A DNA stretch of 64,000 nt from Flavobacteriaceae bacterium (GTDB lineage Bacteria; Bacteroidota; Bacteroidia; Flavobacteriales; Weeksellaceae), in assembly GCA_004359435.1 (NCBI GenBank), contig PTET01000001.1, positions 208,307-272,306 of the forward strand, read 5' to 3'. Shown piece after piece: positions 6,069 through 41,040 of the stretch (its first letter is position 1; the number at the start of each line of letters is the position of its first letter). The translations under genes and the position numbers were made by a program. The notes beneath the pieces are model-generated. The model worked only from the letters and a program-made list of their open reading frames with translations. It was not told where the DNA came from and made no database searches.

Positions 6069-6168
6069 CACAAAGCATACTCTTGGAGGAACATTGTGTT
6101 AAAAATTTTTTTTGCCCCAGTGGGTCTCAATAATTTTTGTAAATTTGTAACTAATCCCGTAACAATTG

Positions 6169-6203
6169 CGGGATTTGTTTTTTTAATATACGCTATACAA
6201 TGT
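6169..6203 (+). repeat. 35-base direct repeat, copy 1 (greA leader and start codon)
   Basis: This stretch covers the end of the greA leader and the ATG at 6200. An exact copy is present at 6403-6437 inside the greA reading frame, 234 bases downstream. The identity ends sharply at both sides (g/t before, c/a after), with a shared aatt just before the left edge. Confidence 0.9.
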
Positions 6204-6643
6204 CAACACAGTACGTAACCCAAGAAGGATTAGACAAATTAAAAGCAGAGCTTTCTGATCTTATTTCTGTACAAAGACCCAAAGTGTCTGCCCAAATCGC
6301 TGAGGCAAGAGACAAAGGAGATTTGTCTGAAAACGCAGAATACGATGCTGCCAAAGAAGCGCAAGGTCTTTTGGAGATGAAAATTTCTAAACTAAAGAAT
6401 TTCGGGATTTGTTTTTTTAATATACGCTATACAATGTAAAAAATTAAAAATCTAGACAACAATTCACTTTTAGATTACACCCTAGTACCAGAAAGTGAGG
6501 CTGATTTGGCCTCTGGAAAAATTTCGGTGAATACCCCTATCGCCAAAGGGCTTTTGGGCAAAAAAGTAGGAGAAAAAGTAGACATTACCCTTCCTAATGG
6601 CAACACCCTTCATTTGGAGGTTTTAGAGATTTCTCTTTCTTAA
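6200..6643 (+). pseudogene. greA: Transcription elongation factor GreA, interrupted
   Basis: GreA rescues backtracked RNA polymerase by stimulating transcript cleavage. The 5' part (6200 to about 6399) encodes the coiled-coil domain including ARDKGDLSENAEYDAAKEAQ with the acidic tip. The 3' part (6440-6643) encodes the FKBP-like C-terminal domain with ESEADLASGKISVNTP and KGLLGKKVGEKV. Between them about 27 codons are missing compared with normal GreA (about 157 residues) and an exact 35-base copy of the greA leader is present instead, ending in an in-frame TAA at 6437-6439. The two halves remain in the same frame. The peptide that could be made is 79 residues and lacks the C-terminal domain. 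The HIT gene follows. Confidence 0.9.
6403..6437 (+). repeat. 35-base direct repeat, copy 2 (inside greA)
   Basis: An exact copy of 6169-6203, in the same orientation, fused to greA codons on both sides. It carries a second ATG at 6434 in a short dead-end context. The copied bases replace roughly 80 bases of greA. Confidence 0.9.
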
Positions 6644-9663: not shown

Positions 9664-9728
9664 GGTGAATTATTGAAAGACAATTTTCAAACACTAATAA
9701 CCTTAAAAAAAGTATTTTTCTCCCTTTT

Positions 9729-9797
9729 AAGCCTTCAAAATTTTCACTTGTGAAAATTTTGAAGGCTTTTGGATTGTGGGCTTCCGCCTAGAGGGTT
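9729..9797 (+). repeat. Two-hairpin intergenic element, copy A
   Basis: A perfect 19-bp stem (9729-9747 with 9750-9768) closes a two-base TT loop; the inner half reads AAAATTTTCAC. About ten bases later comes a short hairpin GGCTTCCGCC followed by TAGAG. Related copies are at 24448 and 31172. This copy lies between the convergent ends of the M20 peptidase and DUF2461 genes, where it could act as a terminator, although it lacks a long T tract. Confidence 0.85.
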
Positions 9798-12913: not shown

Positions 12914-15115
12914 ATGAAAAACCGCTTGTTACTTCTTTTTGGGGTTTTGTTTTTGCTTGGCTGTTCGACCCGTAAGAACAATTTCTTTACCCGAAACTAC
13001 CATAAAATCACCGGTCAATACAATGCATTGTACCATGGAGAAAATGCGCTTTTAAAAGAGTTGGAGTCTAGAAAGGTAGGTTCGGTTTTTAAAGAAGACC
13101 AAATCTTACAAATGTCTCCCTACACCATAGAAAAAATTCCTTTCGATCAGGTAGTTGATCTCCAAGAAATCAACCAAAAGGCTAGTTTATTTAAGGAAGT
13201 TAAGGACAGCACGGAGCAAGAAGAGGTGCTTTCGGATATGCAAATTGCAAGAAACAAAGCCATCAAAACCATAGAAGAGCATTCCATCCAGATTAAGTCC
13301 AAAGAATTTAATCCAGATGTGGCAAAAGCCTATCTGCTTTTAGCCAAAACCCAGTATTTTCAAGGAGAATACATTCAAGGATTAACCTCCCTAAATTACA
13401 TAGAGAAAAACCTTTCTGACTACAAAGATTTTCATCAGGTCTATCTTTGGCTTGGGCTGCATCATGGCGCCTTAGAAAATCCCGAAAAAGCCCAAGAATA
13501 TTTTAACAAACTCATCAAAGAAAAAACCACCAGAAAGCAAAGAGCAGAAAATCTTTCTTATTACGCCCAACATTTGATTCAAACCCAAAATTGGCAGTCT
13601 GCTTATGATTTGTTAGAGGCCAACAAAGAGGTTTTTCCAAGAAAGGAGCAAGACAAAATTAAATTTGTTCAAGGACAATTGTTAGAAAAATTGGGTCAAA
13701 CCGATAAAGCGACGGCTGTTTTTATGGCCTTCGATCAGAAGAAAAAATCGGCCTATTTCGAAGACTCAAAAGTGGAGCTGGCTAAACTTTATCCTGCCAA
13801 TACAGGTAATTTTGATAAAATAGAAAACCAGTGGCTAGCCCTGGCTTCTGAAAAAAACACCACAGAAAACAAGCAGGCCACTTTGTACTATGCCCTAGCC
13901 AAAGCGGCGCAAAGGGCGGGTCTTTCCGAAAAAGAGTCTTTGTATTTGAGTAAAACTTTAGCCCTTTCCAAAGACAACCCCGCTTTTAAGGCCAGCATTT
14001 ACCAAAGCAAAGCTGAGGTTTTATACAAACAAAAGGATTATTATTCTGCCAGTTTGTATTTTGATTCTGCTGCTTCTCAAAATGTAAATCAATCTGAAAG
14101 TTACAGAGACAAACAGTTGGTTTTAAAGAATTTGGTAGAAAAACAAGATAGCCTTAGGGAAATTCAGACCTTACTTGCTCTTCAAAAATTGGAGCCAGAG
14201 GCTCAATTGGAACAAATCAACCAGTTGATAGAGCAGGCAAAACAAAAGTCGCAAAAATCGTCTCCTCAAGGTACTGAAAGTCAAAAGGAAAAGTCTGTAG
14301 AAAAAGAAACCTCGGCTTGGTATTTTTATAACCCAGAACTGTTGGAATCTGGGAAAAAAGCCTTTGCTCAAAAATGGGGAGATCTAGCTTGGAAGGCCGA
14401 TTGGAAGTTTGAAAGAAGCCTAAAACAAAACCAGTCCACAGAACAAATACAAGAGCAATCCAGTACAGAAACACCCCTAGAACAAACCCAAACCGCCGCC
14501 TATTGGCAAAACAAAATCCCAACTAGTCCAGAGCAAATCAAGGCCTTAAACCTAGAAAAAGAGGCTCTAAGCTTTGATATTTTCGAGATTTTCGATCAAA
14601 AATTAAAGGATAAAACCTCCAGTGTTCAAACCTTAGAATCGCTTTTGTCATCAGGGGTTGAATCTTCCCTAATCAAGCAAAGAACCTACTATCAGCTTTA
14701 CAAATTAACCCTTGAGGAAAAATATAAAAAACAGCTTATAGAAGAATATCCGGGTTCTGTTTTTGCTCAAAAACTCTCTGAAAATTCGGAGTCATCAAGT
14801 TCTGCTTCCAAAGAGAAAGCCCAAGAAATTTACGAAAAAGCTCTTCAGGCATACCAAAACAAAAAGTACGATATCGCAGGGGAAGAGCTTAAAAAAATAC
14901 AAAATCTCTCTACTCAAAAAGATAGCCAATGGGGTCCCAAAATTGAGTTCCTTGGCGGGATGATTCTTCTAAAACAAAATCTTTTGTCTAGCTCAGACCA
15001 AAGTGTAGAAGAAATGAAAGCACGATTCCAAGGTTTGATTTTAGATTATCCGGGCAGCGAAGAAGCGATAAAGGCCAAAGAGATTTTAGAAACCATCAAA
15101 AACCAAAACCCTTAA
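12914..15115 (+). CDS. sprE: Type IX secretion / gliding lipoprotein PorW/SprE-like, TPR-rich
   Basis: PorW (SprE) is an outer-membrane-associated periplasmic lipoprotein required for type IX secretion and gliding. The 733-residue protein has a lipoprotein signal (LLFLLGC, with the lipidated Cys at residue 17), followed by STRKNNFFTRNYHKITGQYN and YHGENALL, which match the N-terminus of this family. Many TPR-like helical pairs follow (about residues 100-420), then a low-complexity Gln/Glu/Ser-rich stretch near 470-520 and another helical repeat region. It is somewhat shorter than the roughly 870-residue family norm as I recall it. The bactofilin gene follows 5 bases later. Confidence 0.82.
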   Translation: MKNRLLLLFGVLFLLGCSTRKNNFFTRNYHKITGQYNALYHGENALLKELESRKVGSVFKEDQILQMSPYTIEKIPFDQVVDLQEINQKASLFKEVKDSTEQEEVLSDMQIARNKAIKTIEEHSIQIKSKEFNPDVAKAYLLLAKTQYFQGEYIQGLTSLNYIEKNLSDYKDFHQVYLWLGLHHGALENPEKAQEYFNKLIKEKTTRKQRAENLSYYAQHLIQTQNWQSAYDLLEANKEVFPRKEQDKIKFVQGQLLEKLGQTDKATAVFMAFDQKKKSAYFEDSKVELAKLYPANTGNFDKIENQWLALASEKNTTENKQATLYYALAKAAQRAGLSEKESLYLSKTLALSKDNPAFKASIYQSKAEVLYKQKDYYSASLYFDSAASQNVNQSESYRDKQLVLKNLVEKQDSLREIQTLLALQKLEPEAQLEQINQLIEQAKQKSQKSSPQGTESQKEKSVEKETSAWYFYNPELLESGKKAFAQKWGDLAWKADWKFERSLKQNQSTEQIQEQSSTETPLEQTQTAAYWQNKIPTSPEQIKALNLEKEALSFDIFEIFDQKLKDKTSSVQTLESLLSSGVESSLIKQRTYYQLYKLTLEEKYKKQLIEEYPGSVFAQKLSENSESSSSASKEKAQEIYEKALQAYQNKKYDIAGEELKKIQNLSTQKDSQWGPKIEFLGGMILLKQNLLSSSDQSVEEMKARFQGLILDYPGSEEAIKAKEILETIKNQNP

Positions 15116-15120
15116 ATATC

Positions 15121-15558
15121 ATGTTCGGAAAAAAATCAAACCCTCCAACACCCGTTTCAAATTTTGCCCCTAAACCCGTTAGCCCAAGCCCTTCTGTATC
15201 ATCTTCGTCTCATACCATCATTGGAGAGTCTGTAATCATTGAAGGAAACCTTGTTTGCAAAGGAGATCTGAGGGTAGATGGTATTATCAATGGAAACATC
15301 AAGGCAGCTGGAAGATTAGTACAAGGAAACAAATCGATTATTACTGGCGACATTCATTGCGGGTCTGCCGATCTAGAAGGTACCACTCAGGGAAAAATTC
15401 TCTGTCAAGATCTTTTGAGTGTTAAATCTACTGCGGTGATCAAAGGTGAAGTATTAATGAGCAAACTCTCGGTAGAACCGGGGGCTGTATTTAATGTAAA
15501 TTGCCAAATTAACCAAGGAAAAACCGTTACTAACCTTGTGGAATCCGCCGCTGTTTAG
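15121..15558 (+). CDS. Bactofilin (polymer-forming cytoskeletal protein)
   Basis: Bactofilins polymerise without nucleotide into filaments that help place cell-envelope machinery. The 145-residue protein has a Pro/Ser-rich N-terminal tail (residues 1-35) and a right-handed beta-helix core with regular short repeats such as VIIEGNLVCKGDLRVDGII and KSIITGDIHCGSADLEG, then a short tail. Length is typical. It lies directly after porW/sprE and overlaps the convergent nuclease gene by 4 bases. A link to envelope assembly is inferred from this pairing. Confidence 0.93.
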   Translation: MFGKKSNPPTPVSNFAPKPVSPSPSVSSSSHTIIGESVIIEGNLVCKGDLRVDGIINGNIKAAGRLVQGNKSIITGDIHCGSADLEGTTQGKILCQDLLSVKSTAVIKGEVLMSKLSVEPGAVFNVNCQINQGKTVTNLVESAAV

Positions 15559-20589: not shown

Positions 20590-20663
20590 GGTCCTATAGC
20601 TCAGCTGGTTAGAGCACCTGACTCATAATCAGGTGGTCCCTGGTTCGAGCCCAGGTGGGACCA
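20590..20663 (+). tRNA. tRNA with CAT anticodon (elongator Met or Ile2)
   Basis: A complete cloverleaf of 74 bases: acceptor GGTCCTA pairs with TGGGACC, the D arm reads GCTC...GAGC, the anticodon stem CCTGA pairs with TCAGG around loop CTCATAA, and the T arm holds GGTTCGAGCC. The first pair is G-C, so it is not initiator tRNA. CAT can be Met or, if the C is lysidine-modified, Ile for AUA codons; sequence alone leaves this open. CCA is not encoded in full (the 3' end reads ACCAC). Confidence 0.95.
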
Positions 20664-24361: not shown

Positions 24362-24447
24362 TTTTTACCATGCCAAAGAAAGTTCTTTAAAGTTAAATAA
24401 ATATCTGGCTATGATTGAGGTTTATAGGATGATTTTTAATTTTTCTT

Positions 24448-24520
24448 AAAAGCCATCAAAATTTTCACTTGTGAAAATTTTGATGGCTTTTGGAAGTGAG
24501 AGGCTTTCGCCTAGAGATTT
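24448..24520 (+). repeat. Two-hairpin intergenic element, copy B
   Basis: A perfect 21-bp stem (24448-24468 with 24471-24491) around a TT loop, then a short hairpin AGGCTTTCGCCT and TAGAG. Compared with copy A, one stem position has changed from CTT/AAG to CAT/ATG with both strands altered together. It lies between the 3' end of tyrS and the 5' end of the M19-like gene. Confidence 0.85.
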
Positions 24521-30555: not shown

Positions 30556-31119
30556 ATGAGCAAAAATTTAATTTATTTATTTTTGATACTGGTTTCATGT
30601 AATTCTAAACCTACAGAAAAGCACGACGCGATTTCATCTTCACAATCTCAAAACATTGAAGTTGAAAAACCATATATTGAAGACTCAGGTTTCATTGACT
30701 TGGATAAATTGTTTATTAACGACAATTTAAAATATACAGACAAAAACCTTTCTGAATCGAAAATATTTGATAATATCGGAATGCCTGATTCTATAAAAAT
30801 TGACACTGTAAATTATAATATAAAGACTTTCTATTATGGCAAAAGTTATCTTGAATTTTTAGATCATCGAATTGTTGGTTTTCATTTTGTAGATAAAAAC
30901 CTTAGGTTCACAGATTATTTTTGGGTTGGAATGCCAATTAAACAATTAAAGGCAAAATATCCACAACTTTATAGTAGTAGGGAGGATGATGGTTTTCACG
31001 TTGTCAAAACTGGATGGGATGTGTTGTATGTAATCGATAAAGATTGGAGTCAAAGAATATTGGTGTTTTTTGACCATGAAAAGGTTAGGGAAATATCCGT
31101 TTCATTTTATGAAGACTAA
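30556..31119 (+). CDS. Hypothetical lipoprotein
   Basis: The 187-residue protein starts with a short lipoprotein signal (LIYLFLILVSC, Cys at about residue 15) and NSKPTEK. The mature part has alternating strands and acidic helices and resembles small solute-exposed lipoproteins, but I recognise no family. The segment YFWVGMPIKQLKAKYPQLY suggests an SmpA/BLUF-unrelated two-strand repeat; this is only an impression. It is followed by hairpin element C and then the penicillin-acylase pair. Confidence 0.7.
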   Translation: MSKNLIYLFLILVSCNSKPTEKHDAISSSQSQNIEVEKPYIEDSGFIDLDKLFINDNLKYTDKNLSESKIFDNIGMPDSIKIDTVNYNIKTFYYGKSYLEFLDHRIVGFHFVDKNLRFTDYFWVGMPIKQLKAKYPQLYSSREDDGFHVVKTGWDVLYVIDKDWSQRILVFFDHEKVREISVSFYED

Positions 31120-31171
31120 GGCAATATAACTTCTTTCTATAACTAGATTCAAATCAGAAAAAACAATCTCC

Positions 31172-31240
31172 AGCCATCCTAAATTTTCACAAGTGAAAAT
31201 TTAGGATGGCTATGTCTCCTGGGCTAGCCCTAAAGGTTAT
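31172..31240 (+). repeat. Two-hairpin intergenic element, copy C
   Basis: A perfect 19-bp stem (31172-31190 with 31193-31211) around an AA loop, then the small self-complementary GGGCTAGCCC and TAAAG. The inner core ATTTTCAC/GTGAAAAT is shared with copies A and B, while the outer stem has changed in paired fashion. It lies between the lipoprotein gene and penicillin-acylase gene 1. Confidence 0.8.
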
Positions 31241-31312: not shown

Positions 31313-33403
31313 ATGAAAAAACGCAAAGCCTTGAAAACCCTAGGGATATTTTTGTTATCCCTACAATTGGTTTTTTCCCAAGAAATTGACCCATCCAAAA
31401 TAGACATTGTTCGCGACGCTTATGGGGTTCCAGATATTTTTGCCAAGACCAACAGAGAGGCAGCTTATGGAGTAGCATGGGCACAATGTGAGGACAACTT
31501 CAAAACCTTACAAGATTTGATGATTACCGTCTCTGGGATTCACTCCAAATATGACAACAAAGGAATCATTTTTGACCTCACCTACCAGATGTATGACTTT
31601 GAAGGTCTGATTCAGAGTCAATATTCCAAGGACATCACCCCAGAATTGGAATCGATTTTGGAAGCCTACTGCCTTGCCATAAACCAATACGCCAAAACCC
31701 ACCCAGAAAAAGTGGTTTACAAAGAGCTTTTTCCTTTGAGTCCAAAGCAAATTCTCAAGGTATATTCCATGGCTCTTTTCGCCCCAACGGCTTTTCCATC
31801 TATCGCCAAAGTCTTCAAGAACAAAACTTTGGATACGCGCAAAATCCTCGTTGATGCTACCCAAAAGGGTTCCAATGCTTTTGCCCTAAGCAGTCCCAAA
31901 ACCGCCGATGGCAAAACCTATCTCATCGGGAATCCGCATCAGCCCATTGGAGGGCCGTATGAGTTTTGGGAAGTGGGCGTGCACACAGAGGAAGGTCTGG
32001 ACATCCATGGAGTTACATTTTCGGGAGGTGGGGTTTTCCCAACCATTGGTACCACCCCCAATTTGGGTTGGACCCACACGGTGAATTACCTCAACAATGT
32101 GGATACCTACAAACTGGAAATGCATCCCACAAAGAAAAACACCTACAAGTATGATGAAAAGTGGATAGAACTGGAGGAAAAAACAGCTCGAATTACTTTG
32201 CATTTAGGGGGAATGAAAATTCCATTGAAGAAAAAATATTATCTCAGCCAATATGGTCCAACCCTCAAAAACAAAACGGGATACTATAGTGTAAAATCTA
32301 GTGTTTTAAGCAACCTAAGGCATTTTGAACAGTGGTATGAAATGGCCAAATCTACCAATTTGGAACAGTTTACAAAAGCTTTGGAAATCCAAGGAATCGG
32401 TTTTTTTACCGTTACCTATGCAGACAAAGAGGACAACATCTTTTTGCTCAACAATGCCCTGATTCCCATTCGGGACGAAAGTTTTGATTATACCGAGGTT
32501 TTGGTTGGAAATACCTCCAAGAACAATTGGAATGCAAAGCAAGTTCACCCCATACAAGCTCTGCCATGGACAAAAAATCCTGTTTCTGGATATGTTTACA
32601 ACACCAACAATTCACCTCTTTCAGCTTCCTCAACAGGGGACAATCCAAAATACGAGGACTTTCCCAAGAGCTTTCGAATCCACAAACCAGACAATAGCAG
32701 ATCGAGGGTTCTGTATTCTCTCTTAGAAAATTCACCCAAAATTTCTTTTGAAAAGGCAAAGGAAATTCGGGACAATGTGTATGTGGACAAAAACCATCTG
32801 TCTGAATGGAATTGCATGAACTGCGATGTGATTCCCAAACTTCTTGCCGAAACTCCAGAGCTGGCTCCCGCCAAAGCGGTGTATGACAAATGGAACGGAG
32901 AGTTTTCCATAGACAACAAACAGGCTCCCTTGGCTGCTTTTGCTGCGATGAAAATCACAGATTATGTTTATGCTGAATATGCCAATCCAGACAGAGACAT
33001 TCCCGAGGAGGTTTTGGTCCAAATTTTGTTGGATTCGCAAAAATTTCTACTGAAACATTATGGAACTTTGGAATTCCCTTTGGGTGATTTACAGAAAGTC
33101 AGCCGTTTTGGAGAGGAAAGACCCATGTATGGATGTCCTTTCACCCTTGCCAATTCTAAGTTTGAACTTCAAAAAGACCATACTTTGAAACTCATCTACG
33201 GAGATACCTACATCTTCTATGCGAAATACGGAAAACAAGGTTTGGAAGAGCTCAGAACCATCAACACCGTAGGAAATAGTTTGGAAGAGGGAAATCCACG
33301 TTCCACCAACCAAATGGATTTGTACGTCAACAAACAAACCAAAAACATAGAACTGGACAAAGAAAAAATTCGGGTTAATGGAACTTTGAGCCATCCCCAA
33401 TAA
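31313..33403 (+). CDS. Penicillin acylase family N-terminal-nucleophile hydrolase (paralogue 1)
   Basis: The 696-residue protein has a signal peptide (LKTLGIFLLSLQLVFSQ) and the penicillin-amidase/AHL-acylase layout: an alpha-chain start VRDAYGVPDIFAKTNREAAYG, then Ser187 in KGSNAFAL, which should become the N-terminal nucleophile after self-cleavage. Downstream GNPHQP, LDIHGVTFSGGGVFPTIG and LGWTHTVN match the beta chain. It should hydrolyse an amide of a small acyl compound in the periplasm or outside; the substrate is not predictable. I use the ATG at 31313; an earlier TTG at 31295 lies in the -7 box. A close paralogue follows. Confidence 0.92.
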   Translation: MKKRKALKTLGIFLLSLQLVFSQEIDPSKIDIVRDAYGVPDIFAKTNREAAYGVAWAQCEDNFKTLQDLMITVSGIHSKYDNKGIIFDLTYQMYDFEGLIQSQYSKDITPELESILEAYCLAINQYAKTHPEKVVYKELFPLSPKQILKVYSMALFAPTAFPSIAKVFKNKTLDTRKILVDATQKGSNAFALSSPKTADGKTYLIGNPHQPIGGPYEFWEVGVHTEEGLDIHGVTFSGGGVFPTIGTTPNLGWTHTVNYLNNVDTYKLEMHPTKKNTYKYDEKWIELEEKTARITLHLGGMKIPLKKKYYLSQYGPTLKNKTGYYSVKSSVLSNLRHFEQWYEMAKSTNLEQFTKALEIQGIGFFTVTYADKEDNIFLLNNALIPIRDESFDYTEVLVGNTSKNNWNAKQVHPIQALPWTKNPVSGYVYNTNNSPLSASSTGDNPKYEDFPKSFRIHKPDNSRSRVLYSLLENSPKISFEKAKEIRDNVYVDKNHLSEWNCMNCDVIPKLLAETPELAPAKAVYDKWNGEFSIDNKQAPLAAFAAMKITDYVYAEYANPDRDIPEEVLVQILLDSQKFLLKHYGTLEFPLGDLQKVSRFGEERPMYGCPFTLANSKFELQKDHTLKLIYGDTYIFYAKYGKQGLEELRTINTVGNSLEEGNPRSTNQMDLYVNKQTKNIELDKEKIRVNGTLSHPQ

Positions 33404-33513: not shown

Positions 33514-35610
33514 ATGAATAAAAACATCTTTTTGAAAACCCTAGGGATATTTTTGATGTCCCTGCAATTGGCTTTTTCCCAAGAAATTGACCCAACCAAA
33601 ATAGACATCGTTCGGGATGCCTATGGAGTTCCAGACATTTTCGCCAAAACCAACAGAGAAGCCGCTTATGGAGTAGCATGGGCACAATGTGAGGATAATT
33701 TTTTCAACATTCAAGAACATATCAAAGGAGTTTCAGGGAGTTTTTCTGAGCATTCCAACATGGGAATTTTGCTGGATTTGATTACACAAATGTTCGAGTT
33801 CGACAAAATGGCGAACGAAAGATACGCGCAAGACATTTCTCCAGAGATGGACGCAAACATGAAGGCTTACTGTTTGGCCCTCAACAATTACGCAAAGGCT
33901 CATCCAGACAAAGTGGTGTACAAGGATATTTTTCCCATCAAACCACAGGACCTTGTTAAAGGATATGCAATTGTTTTGCTTTCCAACCATTTTGCAGACG
34001 TCGCCAAAGTAGCATTTAACAAGACGGACGATGTAACCCAAAAATTCTTAGAAGAAAATATGGGCAAAGGTTCCAATGCCTTTGCTTTTAATGCCCCAAA
34101 AACTGCAGACGGAAATGCGTTTTTGATTGGGAATCCCCACAATCCAACTCAAGGACCATATTCTTATTGGGAAGTGGGCGTGCACACAGAGGAAGGATTG
34201 GACATTCATGGGGCAACTTTTGCTGGAGGAGGAGTGTTTCCTAGCATTGGAGTAAACCCCAATTTGGGTTGGAGCCATACTGTGAATTACGTCAACAACT
34301 TCAATACCTACAAACTGGAAATGCATCCGACCAAAAAGAATACCTACAAGTACGATGACCAGTGGTTGGAATTGGAAGAGAGAACAGCCAAACTCACACT
34401 CAATCTCAAAGGTGTAAAAATCCCAATCAAAAAGAAATATTTCATCAGCAAATACGGTCCCACTTTGAAGAACAAATCGGGGTATTATTCTATGAAAACT
34501 TCTGTTCTCACCAATGTTAGAGCTGCAGAACAATGGTACAGAATGGCTCTTTCTACCAATCTGCAAGAATTCAAAAAGGCTTTGGAAATCAACGGATTGG
34601 GAATGTTTACCATCACTTATGCAGACAAGGACAAGAACATCTTCAAACTCAGTCAGGGTATTTTTCCCGTTGTGGATGAAACCCAGAACTGGAGTGGGGT
34701 ACTTGTTGGAAATACCTCCAAAAACAACTGGGATGGAAAAAAATTCTATCCAGTAAAGGATATGGTTTGGGTAGAAAATCCCTCCAGTGGATATGTGTAT
34801 GACACCAACAATGCTGCAATCAAAACCTCTGGTCCCATGGACAACCCCAAAATAGAAAACTATCCCAAAAGTTTTGGACTCCTCACAATGGACAATACCA
34901 GAGGGAAGACTTCACATCTTTTATTGAGCAAACCAGAAACCTTCACTTTTGAGCAGGCCAAAAACTTCAAAAACAGTGTTTTCGTGGATGTAAAAGATCT
35001 GGATTTCCACAACTGCACCAACTGTTCCATCGTTCCAGAATTGATTGCCAAAACACCTGAGCTGGCTCCTACCAAAGCCGTATTTGAGGCTTGGAATGGT
35101 GAATTTGCTCCAGACAACAAACAGGCACCTGTGATGGCCATGTTCATACACAATATGGTGGAATATATCTTTAAGAATTTTGGAAACTACGAAAGACCAA
35201 TCCCAGAAGCTGAATTATTGGGATTTTTGCTAGATGCACAAAAATTTCTTTTGAAACACTATGGAACCCTTGAATTTCCACTTGGAGATCTACAAAAAAC
35301 CAGAAAATTTGGAAAAGAGTACCCCATGTACGGTTCAACTGCGACCATTGCTGCAAGCACTAGACAGGAATTGGATAAGAAAGATCACAAACTCATTTTT
35401 GTAGACGGAGACACCTTTATTTTTGCCGCCAAATTCACCTCTGAGGGTTTGAGTGAACTGAGTACCATCAATCCTTATGGAAATAGCAATTATGAAGAAA
35501 GTCCACACAGCACAGACCAAATGGAGCTTTTTTCAAAACAAAAGACCAAAAACATAGAACTGGACAAAAATAAAATTCGTGAGAAAGGAACATTGAGCCA
35601 TCCGAGGTAA
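33514..35610 (+). CDS. Penicillin acylase family N-terminal-nucleophile hydrolase (paralogue 2)
   Basis: The 698-residue protein parallels paralogue 1 from the signal peptide (LKTLGIFLMSLQLAFSQ) to the final GTLSHPR. The nucleophile Ser187 in GKGSNAFAF is at the same residue number, so both copies should be processed and active. The middle of the alpha chain (about residues 45-180) and the last 100 residues have diverged most, which may reflect different substrates. The ATG at 33514 is preferred over a TTG at 33493. The upstream region is also related to that of paralogue 1, showing a tandem duplication of the whole unit. Confidence 0.92.
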   Translation: MNKNIFLKTLGIFLMSLQLAFSQEIDPTKIDIVRDAYGVPDIFAKTNREAAYGVAWAQCEDNFFNIQEHIKGVSGSFSEHSNMGILLDLITQMFEFDKMANERYAQDISPEMDANMKAYCLALNNYAKAHPDKVVYKDIFPIKPQDLVKGYAIVLLSNHFADVAKVAFNKTDDVTQKFLEENMGKGSNAFAFNAPKTADGNAFLIGNPHNPTQGPYSYWEVGVHTEEGLDIHGATFAGGGVFPSIGVNPNLGWSHTVNYVNNFNTYKLEMHPTKKNTYKYDDQWLELEERTAKLTLNLKGVKIPIKKKYFISKYGPTLKNKSGYYSMKTSVLTNVRAAEQWYRMALSTNLQEFKKALEINGLGMFTITYADKDKNIFKLSQGIFPVVDETQNWSGVLVGNTSKNNWDGKKFYPVKDMVWVENPSSGYVYDTNNAAIKTSGPMDNPKIENYPKSFGLLTMDNTRGKTSHLLLSKPETFTFEQAKNFKNSVFVDVKDLDFHNCTNCSIVPELIAKTPELAPTKAVFEAWNGEFAPDNKQAPVMAMFIHNMVEYIFKNFGNYERPIPEAELLGFLLDAQKFLLKHYGTLEFPLGDLQKTRKFGKEYPMYGSTATIAASTRQELDKKDHKLIFVDGDTFIFAAKFTSEGLSELSTINPYGNSNYEESPHSTDQMELFSKQKTKNIELDKNKIREKGTLSHPR

Positions 35611-35696
35611 AGGGGGCGAGGTTTTTAAATGAGGATGGAATTATTAGGAAATAATAGATTGTTTATAAGCTTTGTTCTAACGATTTTTTATAAAAA

Positions 35697-36578
35697 ATGA
35701 TAAAAATAAGTTTCCTAGTAAAGGCATCTTTGATATTTCTGTTGGTTACATCTTTTGTCGGAAATACAATTACTAAAAGAAATAGTAGGAAAGATTTCAT
35801 AACCCAACTCAACAAAGAATTAAAATATTTTGTTGAAAGTCACGAAAAAATCAATTTTTCGTTGATATTTAGTAGAGACTCTTTGGTAGAGAGTCAAATG
35901 AATATTCATGTAATATATGAAAATTCAATACATTACAATGGTTATCGAGGGAAAATCAAAATTGGCAACAAATTTATAGATGTCTATTGTCATGACGATG
36001 CTAAAAAGTACTTAAGAGATTTAAAATTAGTTGATAGGAGAAAGAACAATACTCTAGATGGTCGTTTGTATCTTTCATCTGATGAAAAGAAGTACTCAAA
36101 ACCTTTTTTTAAGGTTATAAATAATGAGTTAGAACTTTTTGATGAAGATTCTACGATCATTGATACAAGATATATTTCAAACAGGTATGGACCTTTGATT
36201 TGGGAAATAAACACTTTGGAAGACTTGATTGCAGAAATGAATCTAATTTTACCTGTTTCACAGAATGATAAAAAAGACATTAATCTTAGACTTTCTAATA
36301 AATATATTGAATTTGACCCAATAATTTACGAACAGAATATATGTTTTGAGACAGATAGATTTAATGTCTATTTGAAAAAGGAAGAATTAAAGAAAAGTCA
36401 ACTGGAAATAGGGAAAGGACTATCAGAATGTACTATGCCTGATTATGAATTTCGAACTTTTGAAGTATATCCATTGATGTATCTTGTTTTTAAAAAGAGG
36501 GATTATAATCTATATGAACTAGATGGCGGTGTTCCATATACATATTTAAAAGAAAGATATGGAGTAGATTGGTGGTAA
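35697..36578 (+). CDS. Hypothetical secreted protein between penicillin-acylase sequences
   Basis: The 293-residue protein begins with a hydrophobic signal-like helix (ISFLVKASLIFLLVTSFVG) and then a Lys-, Asp- and Asn-rich body with many predicted strands. I recognise no family. It is much more A+T rich by eye than the acylase genes. It lies between the end of paralogue 2 and a short copy of that gene's 3' end (36600-36663), so it is bracketed by related sequence and probably arrived by insertion or survived the loss of a third acylase copy. Its function is unknown. Confidence 0.7.
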   Translation: MIKISFLVKASLIFLLVTSFVGNTITKRNSRKDFITQLNKELKYFVESHEKINFSLIFSRDSLVESQMNIHVIYENSIHYNGYRGKIKIGNKFIDVYCHDDAKKYLRDLKLVDRRKNNTLDGRLYLSSDEKKYSKPFFKVINNELELFDEDSTIIDTRYISNRYGPLIWEINTLEDLIAEMNLILPVSQNDKKDINLRLSNKYIEFDPIIYEQNICFETDRFNVYLKKEELKKSQLEIGKGLSECTMPDYEFRTFEVYPLMYLVFKKRDYNLYELDGGVPYTYLKERYGVDWW

Positions 36579-36599
36579 AAGAGACAGAGCATCATCGGC

Positions 36600-36663
36600 A
36601 ATAGCAATTATGAAGAAAGTCCACACAGCATAGACCAAATGGAACACTTAGCCATCCATTGTA
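36600..36663 (+). pseudogene. 3' relic of a third penicillin-acylase gene
   Basis: Bases 36600-36643 match 35482-35525 in paralogue 2 with one mismatch, and the following bases up to a TAG at 36661 match the last about 20 bases of that gene (GAGCCATCC region), with about 60 bases missing between. Only the extreme C-terminus is left, with an internal deletion. It lacks any start and cannot be functional. Confidence 0.75.
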
Positions 36664-36830
36664 GAAATCCCATTTTACTACTACTTTGCTTTTAGAATGA
36701 CTTTTGTTTGTAAGGCCAAAGGTTTTATAGAGAGATTTTTAACTTACTGAAAAAAAGACAGTTGATAAATAAATTTAAGTTTGTAGATTTTTTTTGATAC
36801 TTTTATCACACGAACCAAATCTTTGGGATA

Positions 36831-37301
36831 ATGAAAAAATCACTCTCTATATTATTTTTATTTGGCCTATCAATGGTCTTTTTTTCTTGTAACAAATCGG
36901 ACTCCGATGAACAGCTCGGGGTTTCTGCACCCGAAAACACCATTGTTTATAGAAACGAGAGTTATCAAAGCATCCAAATGAAGGGATACAAAAACGGGAC
37001 TCTCATCAAAACCTCAAGTCTTAAAAAAAGAACTGAATTAAATCCTGAAATCATCGATTCTTTGGTTTTGAAAGAAAATTCTTCTTTTTCAAATAGCGCC
37101 ATAGATTCCATTGTTATTTTGTACAATGTAAATTCGGGATGTTTCTATCAAACTTTCGGAAAGACATCAGACTTAGCAAATCCTCGAAACCCATTAGCGG
37201 CAGGAGTTAAATCTGAAAAAGCAAATGCAGATGGAAGTTATACCTACACCTTTACCTTCCCAGAAGATGTGTTTTCATCAGATGTTAAAGTCTGTAACTA
37301 A
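36831..37301 (+). CDS. Hypothetical lipoprotein
   Basis: The 156-residue protein has a lipoprotein signal (LFLFGLSMVFFSC, Cys at residue 20) followed by NKSDSDEQ. A run of Ser, Lys and acidic residues directly after the lipidated Cys resembles the export signal that sends lipoproteins to the cell surface in Bacteroidota. The mature part shows NTIVYRNESYQSIQMKGYK and a strand-rich C-terminal half with no known domain. The terminator at 37324 follows, so it is monocistronic. Confidence 0.75.
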   Translation: MKKSLSILFLFGLSMVFFSCNKSDSDEQLGVSAPENTIVYRNESYQSIQMKGYKNGTLIKTSSLKKRTELNPEIIDSLVLKENSSFSNSAIDSIVILYNVNSGCFYQTFGKTSDLANPRNPLAAGVKSEKANADGSYTYTFTFPEDVFSSDVKVCN

Positions 37302-37323: not shown

Positions 37324-37356
37324 GCCCTGCTTGATGATTTAAGTAGGGCTTTTTTA
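37324..37356 (+). terminator. Terminator after the lipoprotein gene
   Basis: The stem GCCCTGCTT (37324-37332) pairs with AAGTAGGGC (37341-37349), one G-U pair included, and is followed by six T. Confidence 0.85.
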
Positions 37357-37462: not shown

Positions 37463-39259
37463 ATGAAAAACATTCGCAACTTTTGTATTATCGCTCATAT
37501 CGACCACGGGAAAAGCACCTTGGCAGATCGATTGCTCCAAGAGACCAAAACCGTTTCGGATAGAGACCTTCAGGCCCAAACTCTAGATGACATGGATTTG
37601 GAGAGAGAAAGAGGGATTACCATAAAAAGCCATGCCATTCAAATGGATTATGTGTACAAGGGCGAAAAATATGTATTAAACCTGATTGATACCCCAGGAC
37701 ACGTAGATTTTTCTTACGAAGTTTCAAGAAGTATTGCTGCCTGCGAAGGAGCGCTTCTGATTGTTGATGCCGCTCAAAGCATACAGGCGCAAACCATTTC
37801 TAACTTGTATTTGGCCTTGGAAAACGATTTGGAAATCATTCCAATTCTCAACAAAATAGATTTGCCTTCTGCCAATCCAGAAGAAGTAACCGATGACATT
37901 GTAGACCTTTTGGGTTGTGATCCTTCGGAGGTAATTCATGCCAGCGGAAAAACCGGAGCGGGAGTTTTGGATATTCTCTCTGCGGTTATCGAGCGGATTC
38001 CTGCCCCCAAAGGCGATCCAGAGGCTCCCCTTCAAGCCCTTATTTTTGACTCTGTCTACAATTCTTTTCGAGGTGTTGAAACCTATTTTAAGGTGGTGAA
38101 TGGAAGCATCAAAAAAGGTCAAAAAATTAAATTTATGGCCACCGGTGGAAAGTTTGATGCCGATGAGGTTGGAACGCTCAAACTTACCCAAGCCCCCAAA
38201 AATGAAATCAAAACCGGAGATGTGGGTTACCTTATTACCGGTATCAAAGACGCCAGAGAAATTAAAGTAGGAGACACCATTACCGATGCCCAGAATCCAA
38301 CTTCTGCTGCCATTGATGGTTTTGAAGATGTAAAACCCATGGTTTTTGCTGGAATCTACCCAGTGGACACCGAAGAGTACGAAGAACTAAGGTACTCTAT
38401 GGAAAAGCTTCAACTCAATGACGCTTCACTTGTTTTCGAGCCAGAAAGTTCTGCAGCCTTGGGATTTGGTTTTAGATGTGGATTCCTTGGAATGCTACAC
38501 ATGGAAATTATCCAAGAAAGGCTAGAAAGGGAATTTAACATGACGGTGATTACAACGGTTCCCAACGTGTCTTACCATGCATTTACCAAAAAAAATACAG
38601 AAGAAATTATTTTGGTGAACAATCCATCGGATCTTCCAGACCCTTCTTCTTTGGACAGAGTAGAAGAGCCATTTATCAAAGCTTCTATCATCACCAAATC
38701 GGACTTTGTGGGTCAGGTGATGAGTCTTTGTATCGAAAAAAGAGGCCGAATTACCAATCAGGTATATCTTACCTCTGACAGGGTAGAACTCACTTTCGAT
38801 ATGCCTCTGGCGGAAATTGTGTTTGATTTCTATGACAGGCTTAAAACAGTCTCCAAAGGATATGCTTCTTTTGATTATTCACCCATTGGTATGCGAGCTT
38901 CCAAACTGGTAAAAGTGGATGTGCTTTTGAATGGAGAGGTGGTAGATGCGCTTTCATCTCTTTTGCACCAAGATAATGCCTATGAAATTGGGAAGAAGAT
39001 GTGCGAAAAACTCAAGGAACTCATTCCTCGCCAACAGTTCGATATTCCCATCCAGGCCGCCATCGGTGCGAAATTCATCGCCAGAGAAACCATCAAAGCC
39101 CTTCGAAAAGACGTAACGGCCAAATGTTACGGAGGAGACATTTCCAGAAAGAGAAAACTACTCGAAAAACAGAAAAAAGGAAAAAAACGTATGAGAGCGG
39201 TGGGGAATGTAGAGATTCCACAGGAAGCCTTCATGGCGGTTTTGAAGCTCAATGACTAG
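37463..39259 (+). CDS. lepA: Elongation factor 4 (LepA)
   Basis: EF4 is a ribosomal GTPase that acts on stalled or mis-translocated ribosomes and in ribosome biogenesis. The 598-residue protein has all G motifs: AHIDHGKST at residues 11-19, ERGITI with the switch I Thr, DTPGH, NKID, and a later SGKTG. Domains II, III, V and the EF4-specific C-terminal domain follow, ending in [20 protein letters not shown]. Length and start are as expected. Confidence 0.98.
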
Positions 39260-39328: not shown

Positions 39329-39377
39329 CTTAAAATGAATTCCTTAGCTTTGATTGAAATCCTTTAGAAAAAATAGA

Positions 39378-40199
39378 ATGAAAAAAATATTTACTCTTTG
39401 TGCCATTGCTTTGTTAAGTCTTGCTTCGTGTGGAAAAGATGAAGGGCCAGATTTGCCTCCAATAAGTAGTTCTTCTGTTTTGCCTAAGAGAGTAACGTAT
39501 ATAGAAAAATCAAATGATGAAAATGATCAGGATGAAGATAAATCAATAAAAAATATTACATATAACGGCAATAAGATTAATGAAATCACTACTTCGGTTG
39601 GTTCAAGAGATGTTTACACCTATACTGGTGATTTTATAACCAAGATAACATCCCTTAATGTCAAAAATGAGATTATAGAGACTGATGATTTTAGTTATGA
39701 TCATAATGGGAAATTAATATCTGTTGTAACTATTTCAAATAATATGAATAGTGAGGGAGAATTAATTACTACCAAAAATAAAGATGTGTATACTCACAAC
39801 AGTGATGGCACTATTGTTCAGGAATCGTATCGATTCGATTTAGATGGCAAAGAAGTAAAAGATGATGGCTCAACTATATTTACTGTTTCTAATGGAAACG
39901 TAATCAAAGAAGTGCGTACCAGTGGCGATCAAAATAACATAAATGTCAATATCTATGAGGATGAATATGACAATAAAAAATCACCATTTTCCAATATAAC
40001 AGGATTTGACAGATTGATATTTGATGCTCCAACCTCTAGAAACAATCCTCTAAAAAGTAAATACCAACATATTTACAATAATGTTGTTCAAAGTTCAAGT
40101 ACACATATCTATACTAATACTTACAGTACAGATGGTTACTTGTTGTTTTCTAGTTTTGTAGGTGATGATTACTCTGGAAGTGAGTCATACGAATATTAA
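39378..40199 (+). CDS. Hypothetical lipoprotein with YD-like beta repeats (tandem copy 1)
   Basis: I use the ATG at 39378; a TTG at 39354 would add eight residues. The 273-residue protein has a lipoprotein signal (LCAIALLSLASC, Cys about residue 19) and then GKDEGPDLPP, a surface-export-like patch. The mature part is built of short strand repeats such as ITYNGNKINEITT, YTYTGDFITKITS and FSYDHNGKLISV, like RHS/YD-type or LVIVD-like repeats. The next gene shares signal, patch and repeats, so the pair arose by tandem duplication. The function is unknown; surface exposure is inferred. Confidence 0.78.
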   Translation: MKKIFTLCAIALLSLASCGKDEGPDLPPISSSSVLPKRVTYIEKSNDENDQDEDKSIKNITYNGNKINEITTSVGSRDVYTYTGDFITKITSLNVKNEIIETDDFSYDHNGKLISVVTISNNMNSEGELITTKNKDVYTHNSDGTIVQESYRFDLDGKEVKDDGSTIFTVSNGNVIKEVRTSGDQNNINVNIYEDEYDNKKSPFSNITGFDRLIFDAPTSRNNPLKSKYQHIYNNVVQSSSTHIYTNTYSTDGYLLFSSFVGDDYSGSESYEY

Positions 40200-40224: not shown

Positions 40225-41040
40225 ATGAAAAAAATATTTGCCCTATTTGCCATTGCTTTGTTAAGTTTTACTTCTTGTAAGAATGACGAAGGTGAAATTC
40301 AAACTCCACCAAGCAGTTCTACTATATTGCCTACGAAAATTTCGTTTATTAATAAAGAAGATCAGGCGGGGAGTACTAAGATTATCTACAACGGAAATAA
40401 GATTGTTGATGCCACACATGCTGATCTAAGTAGAACTGTTTATAGCTATACTGGAGATTTGATTACACAAATTACAGAATATGATAGCACTGGTAAAATT
40501 TCATTTAAAGATTTTTATACGTATCAAAATGGAAAATTGAGTGAGAATAATCATCAATCGATTGATTCAATTGGTGCAATTAAATCTAAAAAGAGAGAGA
40601 CCTATACCTACAATTCAGATGGAACAATTCTTTTAGAATCCTATTCCATAGATCCTACAACAAATGTTGAAACAAAAGATGATCATGGTACAGAGGTTTT
40701 AACCCGCTACAATGGAAATATAATTAAATGGGTTCATATATCTTCACATACCTATTCAGGAAAAACATATACTCATACAACTACCTATGATTATAAGTAT
40801 GACGATAAAAAGAGTCCCTTTGCAAATGTTATAGGTTTTGATGCACTTATTGATGTTTTTAGTGATAGAAACAACCTTGTAAGTGAAACTGAAACAACTG
40901 AAGAAAAAGTAGATGGAATAGTTACATCAACCCGAACAGAAACCGTCGATTATGCAAACCAGTACAATGAAAACGGTTTCCTAACCAAATCTAGTTACTT
41001 TAAGTATGATTTCCTTTTTCAAGAGGAATACGAATACTAA
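40225..41040 (+). CDS. Hypothetical lipoprotein with YD-like beta repeats (tandem copy 2)
   Basis: The 271-residue protein parallels the preceding gene: signal LFAIALLSFTSC, the patch KNDEGEIQTPPS, then IIYNGNKIVDATH, YSYTGDLITQITE and FYTYQNGKLSE. Its C-terminal ending EEYEY matches the ESYEY ending of copy 1. The copies are clearly diverged, so the duplication is not recent. It lies 25 bases after copy 1 and is probably in the same transcript, ended by a terminator at 41060. Confidence 0.78.
   Translation: MKKIFALFAIALLSFTSCKNDEGEIQTPPSSSTILPTKISFINKEDQAGSTKIIYNGNKIVDATHADLSRTVYSYTGDLITQITEYDSTGKISFKDFYTYQNGKLSENNHQSIDSIGAIKSKKRETYTYNSDGTILLESYSIDPTTNVETKDDHGTEVLTRYNGNIIKWVHISSHTYSGKTYTHTTTYDYKYDDKKSPFANVIGFDALIDVFSDRNNLVSETETTEEKVDGIVTSTRTETVDYANQYNENGFLTKSSYFKYDFLFQEEYEY

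Follow-up and report, generated by a model that had tools for sequence, protein, structure and literature searches.

Downstream of a tandem pair of acylase genes in an uncultured member of the Bacteroidota, and separated from them by an orphan A+T-rich gene (here X), lies a stretch of about 80 nt that resembles the end of the nearer acylase gene. This raises the question of what this stretch is and how an acylase gene end came to stand on the far side of an unrelated gene. The window, i.e., the whole 64-kb stretch of DNA analysed (C1:208307-272306), belongs to an 83% complete genome whose 5 contigs total 1.65 Mb. Acylase A, acylase B, X, the relic and a lipoprotein-like gene lie in this order on the + strand, followed by lepA:

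31313–33403, + strand: acylase A, Penicil_amidase family (Ntn hydrolase), intact, 696 aa (Pfam PF01804, E 2.9e-81)
33514–35610, + strand: acylase B, Penicil_amidase family, intact, 698 aa, the acylase most similar to the relic (Pfam PF01804, E 1.7e-84)
35479–35525, + strand: 47-nt core of acylase B, repeated in the relic (96% identity)
35526–35589, + strand: 64-nt segment of acylase B absent from the relic, GGA at both edges (35523–35525 and 35587–35589; from the sequence)
35611–35696, no strand: spacer between acylase B and X, G+C 0.279, no terminator-like site listed (sequence composition and terminator scan)
35697–36578, + strand: orphan A+T-rich gene X, 293 aa, hydrophobic N-terminus (ORF list, profile and genome searches)
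36584–36596, + strand: relic piece 1, 10/13 identical to acylase B 35457–35469, followed by a 9-nt gap (alignment)
36597–36643, + strand: relic piece 2, 45/47 identical to acylase B 35479–35525 (repeat family D6)
36641–36664, + strand: relic piece 3, reading GTLSHPL* and closing with TAG where the acylases stop, 6/24 nt different from acylase B, GGA common with piece 2
36831–37301, + strand: small lipoprotein-like gene, not matched (E <= 0.001) in any of 99 further family genomes
37324–37349, + strand: terminator-like hairpin, the sole + strand one listed from the end of acylase B to 37500
37463–39259: lepA, after the lipoprotein-like gene

A decayed acylase gene end

The core of the similarity (36597–36643) matches acylase B at 45 of 47 nt (96%), and the acylase A counterpart of the core at 33272–33318 shows 68% identity. 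Three observations made in a sequence-only reading of this DNA were recovered here: a 44-base piece of the acylase 3' end recurs at 36600 (35482–35525 versus 36600–36643, 97.7%, one mismatch), the last bases of the gene follow after an internal deletion (the 17-mer at 35587–35603 recurs at 36641–36657 with 2 mismatches), and the A+T-rich gene is enclosed by two copies of the same 3' sequence, with X lying between the end of acylase B and the relic. Elsewhere in the window, the acylases and the relic aside, the best match to the core has 20 mismatches in 47 (21 on the other strand), and a chance repeat is therefore excluded. The same 17-mer of acylase B is found in acylase A with 1 mismatch, the next best place on the + strand having 4. 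The similarity also extends upstream of the core, across the 9-nt gap, into 36584–36596 (10/13), a 13-nt match equalled in 1 of 310 background regions of 40 nt.

The 64-nt deletion within the relic is joined at the GGA microhomology and is not a multiple of 3 in length. Beyond it, the relic runs to a TAG at 36662–36664, homologous in position to the stops of acylases A and B (both TAA), such that the three gene ends read GTLSHPL* in the relic, GTLSHPR* in acylase B and GTLSHPQ* in acylase A. As its stop codon falls exactly at the position of those of the two acylases, the relic is the end of an acylase gene. Judged from its sequence, 36584–36664 is thus what remains, after decay, of the 3' end of a gene like acylase B, frameshifted and cut to ~80 nt. 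The two properties by which a pseudogene fragment is recognized are both present, namely homology to an intact acylase (45/47 nt and the tail) and a frame that is broken and truncated. The similarity does not continue past the gene: the DNA after acylase B (35611–35696) and that after the relic (36665–36830) are unrelated.

The substitutions in the relic retain a coding signature. Among the 26 codons alignable with acylase B, 5 changed codons are synonymous and 3 are not, an outcome as good or better being reached in 0.1–0.6% of random-substitution trials. With acylase A as the polarizer, 6 differences fall on the relic branch and 0 on that of acylase B, with 4 more ambiguous. On the relic's own branch, these 6 changes leave 3 codons synonymous and 2 not (1.3–4.7% of random trials), the two sets of p values being based on 10 and 6 substitutions and uncorrected, with several features examined. 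This synonymous excess hints that the ancestor of the relic was coding. The core is also much closer to acylase B than the ends are (2/45 versus 8/33 changed; Fisher p 0.015), a contrast predicted by no simple model.

The relic lies in phase with X beyond the stop codon of X, as expected in a third of random placements. A reading of the end of X in frame into the relic was tried, with a weak tblastn match of acylase A spanning both, and was rejected: the X-internal part of the match is at chance level (503/5000 shuffles as good; 127/500 at the DNA level).

Other repeats in the same genome

In greA, 46 nt of the 5' region including the ATG (6161–6206) recur at 6395–6440 with 93% identity; the copy sits between the N-terminal and C-terminal domains and breaks the frame, and the single match to the GreA C-terminal domain in the assembly is this frame-broken greA. 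A tandem pair of alpha/beta hydrolase genes (L165:13691-14524 and 14545-15159) has a second member with a truncated start, the opening 97 nt of which are identical to part of the first gene; this points to recombination between the two adjacent genes. Three related long palindromes are dispersed in the window (9724–9773, 24445–24494 and 31167–31216), the last of which is also a listed terminator-like hairpin on the - strand.

Short lone local copies are not enriched in this genome: 400 kb of it contain 7, with 3 more in the window, and equal lengths of two relatives contain 6 and 5.

The acylases and the question of a third copy

Acylases A and B, a tandem pair with 59% identical proteins, match the penicillin amidase/AHL acylase family (PF01804) over nearly their full length; with the NCBIfam equivalog model for PvdQ, acylase B scores 143 bits, far below the 950-bit cut-off. 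None of the 98 relatives listed shares the genus, and a single one of them (G087) has acylase matches at E <= 1e-20; the rest of the family, with 319 genomes searched, lacks these acylases at E <= 1e-60. Among named genomes, identity to the acylases reaches 46% at most, the nearest matches coming from Saprospiraceae, Chitinophagales and other MAGs of Bacteroidetes, in a search that may omit records very near the window's own genome. Of 79 acylase loci, 55 were compared, those left out being partial matches and distant non-Bacteroidota loci; in 4 of the 55 a second acylase adjoins the first, either in tandem (L027 and L074) or on the other strand (L049 and L071), and a separate short acylase fragment was seen in 0/55, with many contigs ending soon after the acylase.

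The relic might accordingly be what is left of a full third acylase that once followed X, or was invaded by it, and of which all but the 3' end has been deleted. In its favour are the tandem A–B pair itself, the direct tandem pairs at 2/55 distant loci, and the hydrolase pair of the same genome, in which the truncated second gene begins with 97 nt identical to its neighbour. Against this, no further acylase piece was encountered between 35611 and 36830, elsewhere in the window or when the genome was searched with protein queries. For the two full-length acylases, matches beyond the relic in 35611–36830 are at chance level (best protein E 0.074); in the rest of the window the best protein match has E 0.33, and the nucleotide matches listed are at chance level too. 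Searched at the protein level up to E 10, the genome gave A, B, the relic (E 0.004) and an acylase at C1:79038-81152 (31% identical), though such searches would miss short or strongly diverged pieces, in a genome that is 83% complete. Moreover, a recent tandem copy of acylase B should carry the flank of acylase B, whereas the flank of the relic is unrelated. A lost third acylase is thus unlikely. What stands of the earlier description of a third-acylase relic is the acylase gene end, decayed by a frameshifting 64-nt deletion and a 9-nt gap; a whole third gene would be conjectural, no other piece of one having been found in the window or in the protein search of the genome, and so would the suggested insertion of X into it and an exchange of gene content at this spot.

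The orphan gene between the repeats

X is the sole ORF of at least 100 aa between the repeats. With a G+C of 0.281 (28%), it is the part of the window poorest in G+C at this length: 3 of 1263 X-sized windows are as low, all 3 overlapping X. Several neighbours without an above-cut-off Pfam match are also low (30556–31119, 0.293; 39363–40199, 0.305; 40225–41040, 0.317), and the low G+C is for this reason a weak sign of a foreign origin of X. The last two of these neighbours are tandem lipoprotein-like paralogues (41% identical), the former of which matches Imm42 weakly and below the threshold.

Going by its hydrophobic N-terminus, the product of X may be secreted. Its Pfam matches are confined to Astro_p19 (E 0.046, below the cut-off of that family), PHROGs gave one weak match (E 0.3), and NCBIfam and PADLOC gave none; likeness to a recombinase was absent in Pfam and NCBIfam. 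Of 394 further genomes from the class, 8 contain weak matches (E <= 0.01 and <= 18.9 bits; the best per-genome E is 6.2e-4), as do 8 of the 98 relatives (E 0.019–0.097), all treated as probable chance matches, and at none of the 79 acylase loci was there a match at E <= 0.01. A single-sequence fold model has a mean pLDDT of 32.6 and is unusable, and comparison with solved structures yielded two matches alone (E 0.3 and 0.44). Two candidate identities were rejected: a diverged acylase (best E 1.1 against acylase B, in a single comparison) and a gene of phage or plasmid origin (neither collection yielded a match, and none was confirmed in viral contigs). The exact 24-base core of the relic is likewise absent from the viral contigs.

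No + strand terminator-like site is listed between acylase B and 37324, and acylase B, X and the lipoprotein-like gene may therefore form a single transcript; the region has 7 terminator-like sites versus 4.9 in shuffles. Farther downstream, lepA itself was found in 29/29 relatives, and its neighbourhood is not kept, with 0 of 21 window proteins matched near lepA in these 29 (~1.5 kb to each side, less at contig ends).

How X and the gene end may have come to their present places

We favour, with a probability of roughly 0.4, the reading that the relic is an acylase-B-like gene end left by one recombination event beside the intact acylase B, with X between the two gene ends. One-sided homologous recombination would be the most economical route: incoming DNA carrying the end of acylase B followed by X would pair with the resident acylase B, and its far end would join illegitimately inside the resident gene. 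The cell would end up with a whole acylase B and with X, while the former 3' end of acylase B would be pushed downstream and decay there through the 64-nt deletion at GGA, the 9-nt deletion and point changes. The unrelated flanks of acylase B and the relic are expected under such a displacement because the present flank of acylase B would have come with X. The reading is also consistent with a relic core far closer to acylase B than to acylase A, the retained stop of the gene end, the synonymous excess, and an X without a solid relative and with the lowest G+C. The layout, in this single genome, would fit what is looked for in homology-facilitated illegitimate recombination—homology at one end and none or microhomology at the other. 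An empty or differently arranged version of the locus did not turn up among the relatives, which counts against this reading. The Competence and DNA_processg_A families (ComEC and DprA type) are present in the genome and lend weak support to capture by recombination; both also match 10/14 control genomes. The repeat, its acylase origin, its decay and the order B–X–relic are there in the DNA, whereas a single event that introduced X and at the same time displaced the gene end is an inference.

A close rival, fitting nearly as well, is a local short copy: template switching or repair would have copied part of the 3' end of acylase B ~1.1 kb downstream, between X and the lipoprotein-like gene, with X already present and unconnected. 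The 46-nt repeat (93%) of the greA 5' region within greA, in the same window, shows that such copying happens in this lineage, there without any captured gene, which counts against displacement, as does the uneven similarity of the core and the ends. Likewise, the placement of all 6 polarized differences on the relic branch and 0 on acylase B fits a recent copy of acylase B decaying in place equally well. However, the relic ends at the acylase stop though the flank beyond is unrelated, where a randomly copied piece would rarely stop, and the synonymous excess on the relic branch (P 0.013–0.047), albeit small, also speaks against it. We consider a local copy somewhat less probable than displacement. 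Displacement itself needs a break at the stop codon because alleles of one gene are expected to share their 3' flank, and indeed every route needs a break near the stop codon because the flanks differ.

Site-specific integration leaves the target gene whole, with a second copy of its 3' end farther on. X might thus have arrived on a small element targeting the acylase 3' end, the repeats being its attachment sites, and the layout seen here is the one expected. However, there is no recombinase between the repeats, the 4 Phage_integrase matches of the genome all lie outside the window, the tRNA genes found (at 20590 and 59783) are not at the repeats, and no terminal inverted repeats stand out among the 25 of 33 pairs listed; this origin is very improbable. 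An artefact of assembly is the least probable of all: the sequence is a metagenome-assembled genome, 83% complete and in 5 contigs, but the copies differ by substitutions and deletions and both their flanks differ, whereas the copies produced by a misjoin should be identical.

Parallels in other bacteria

The arrangement at acylase B and X belongs to a known kind of event. For the type VI secretion (T6SS) loci of V. cholerae, one study proposes homology-facilitated illegitimate recombination by which the 3' end of an effector gene is shifted back, and describes the process as rare (PMC5361080). Those effector-immunity arrays resemble the present locus in having a constant upstream gene, a new unrelated gene and an old 3' end downstream; they differ in that the event was inferred there from many strains (PMC5361080), whereas here there is one genome and X is not known as a member of an effector-immunity pair. 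In E. coli conjugation, homology-facilitated illegitimate recombination is reported to occur at low frequency (PMC3240628). Among small variable segments in three species, 10–18% are reported as flanked by direct repeats (PMC2884548); the likeness lies in a short unrelated segment between repeats of the same orientation, seen here in one genome. A more far-reaching version, in which the acylase 3' end is a recurring landing site where strains swap small unrelated genes and leave old gene ends behind, appears quite improbable.

Implications

At present, the locus is a decayed gene fragment beside an orphan gene, i.e., ordinary debris of DNA rearrangement, and its main use is as a caution against inferring a whole third enzyme from 80 bases. 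Nonetheless, the relic may mark how X came in. Should relatives turn out to carry other genes between these two acylase ends, it would become a small record, open to dating, of how a Bacteroidota lineage not yet in culture captures genes.
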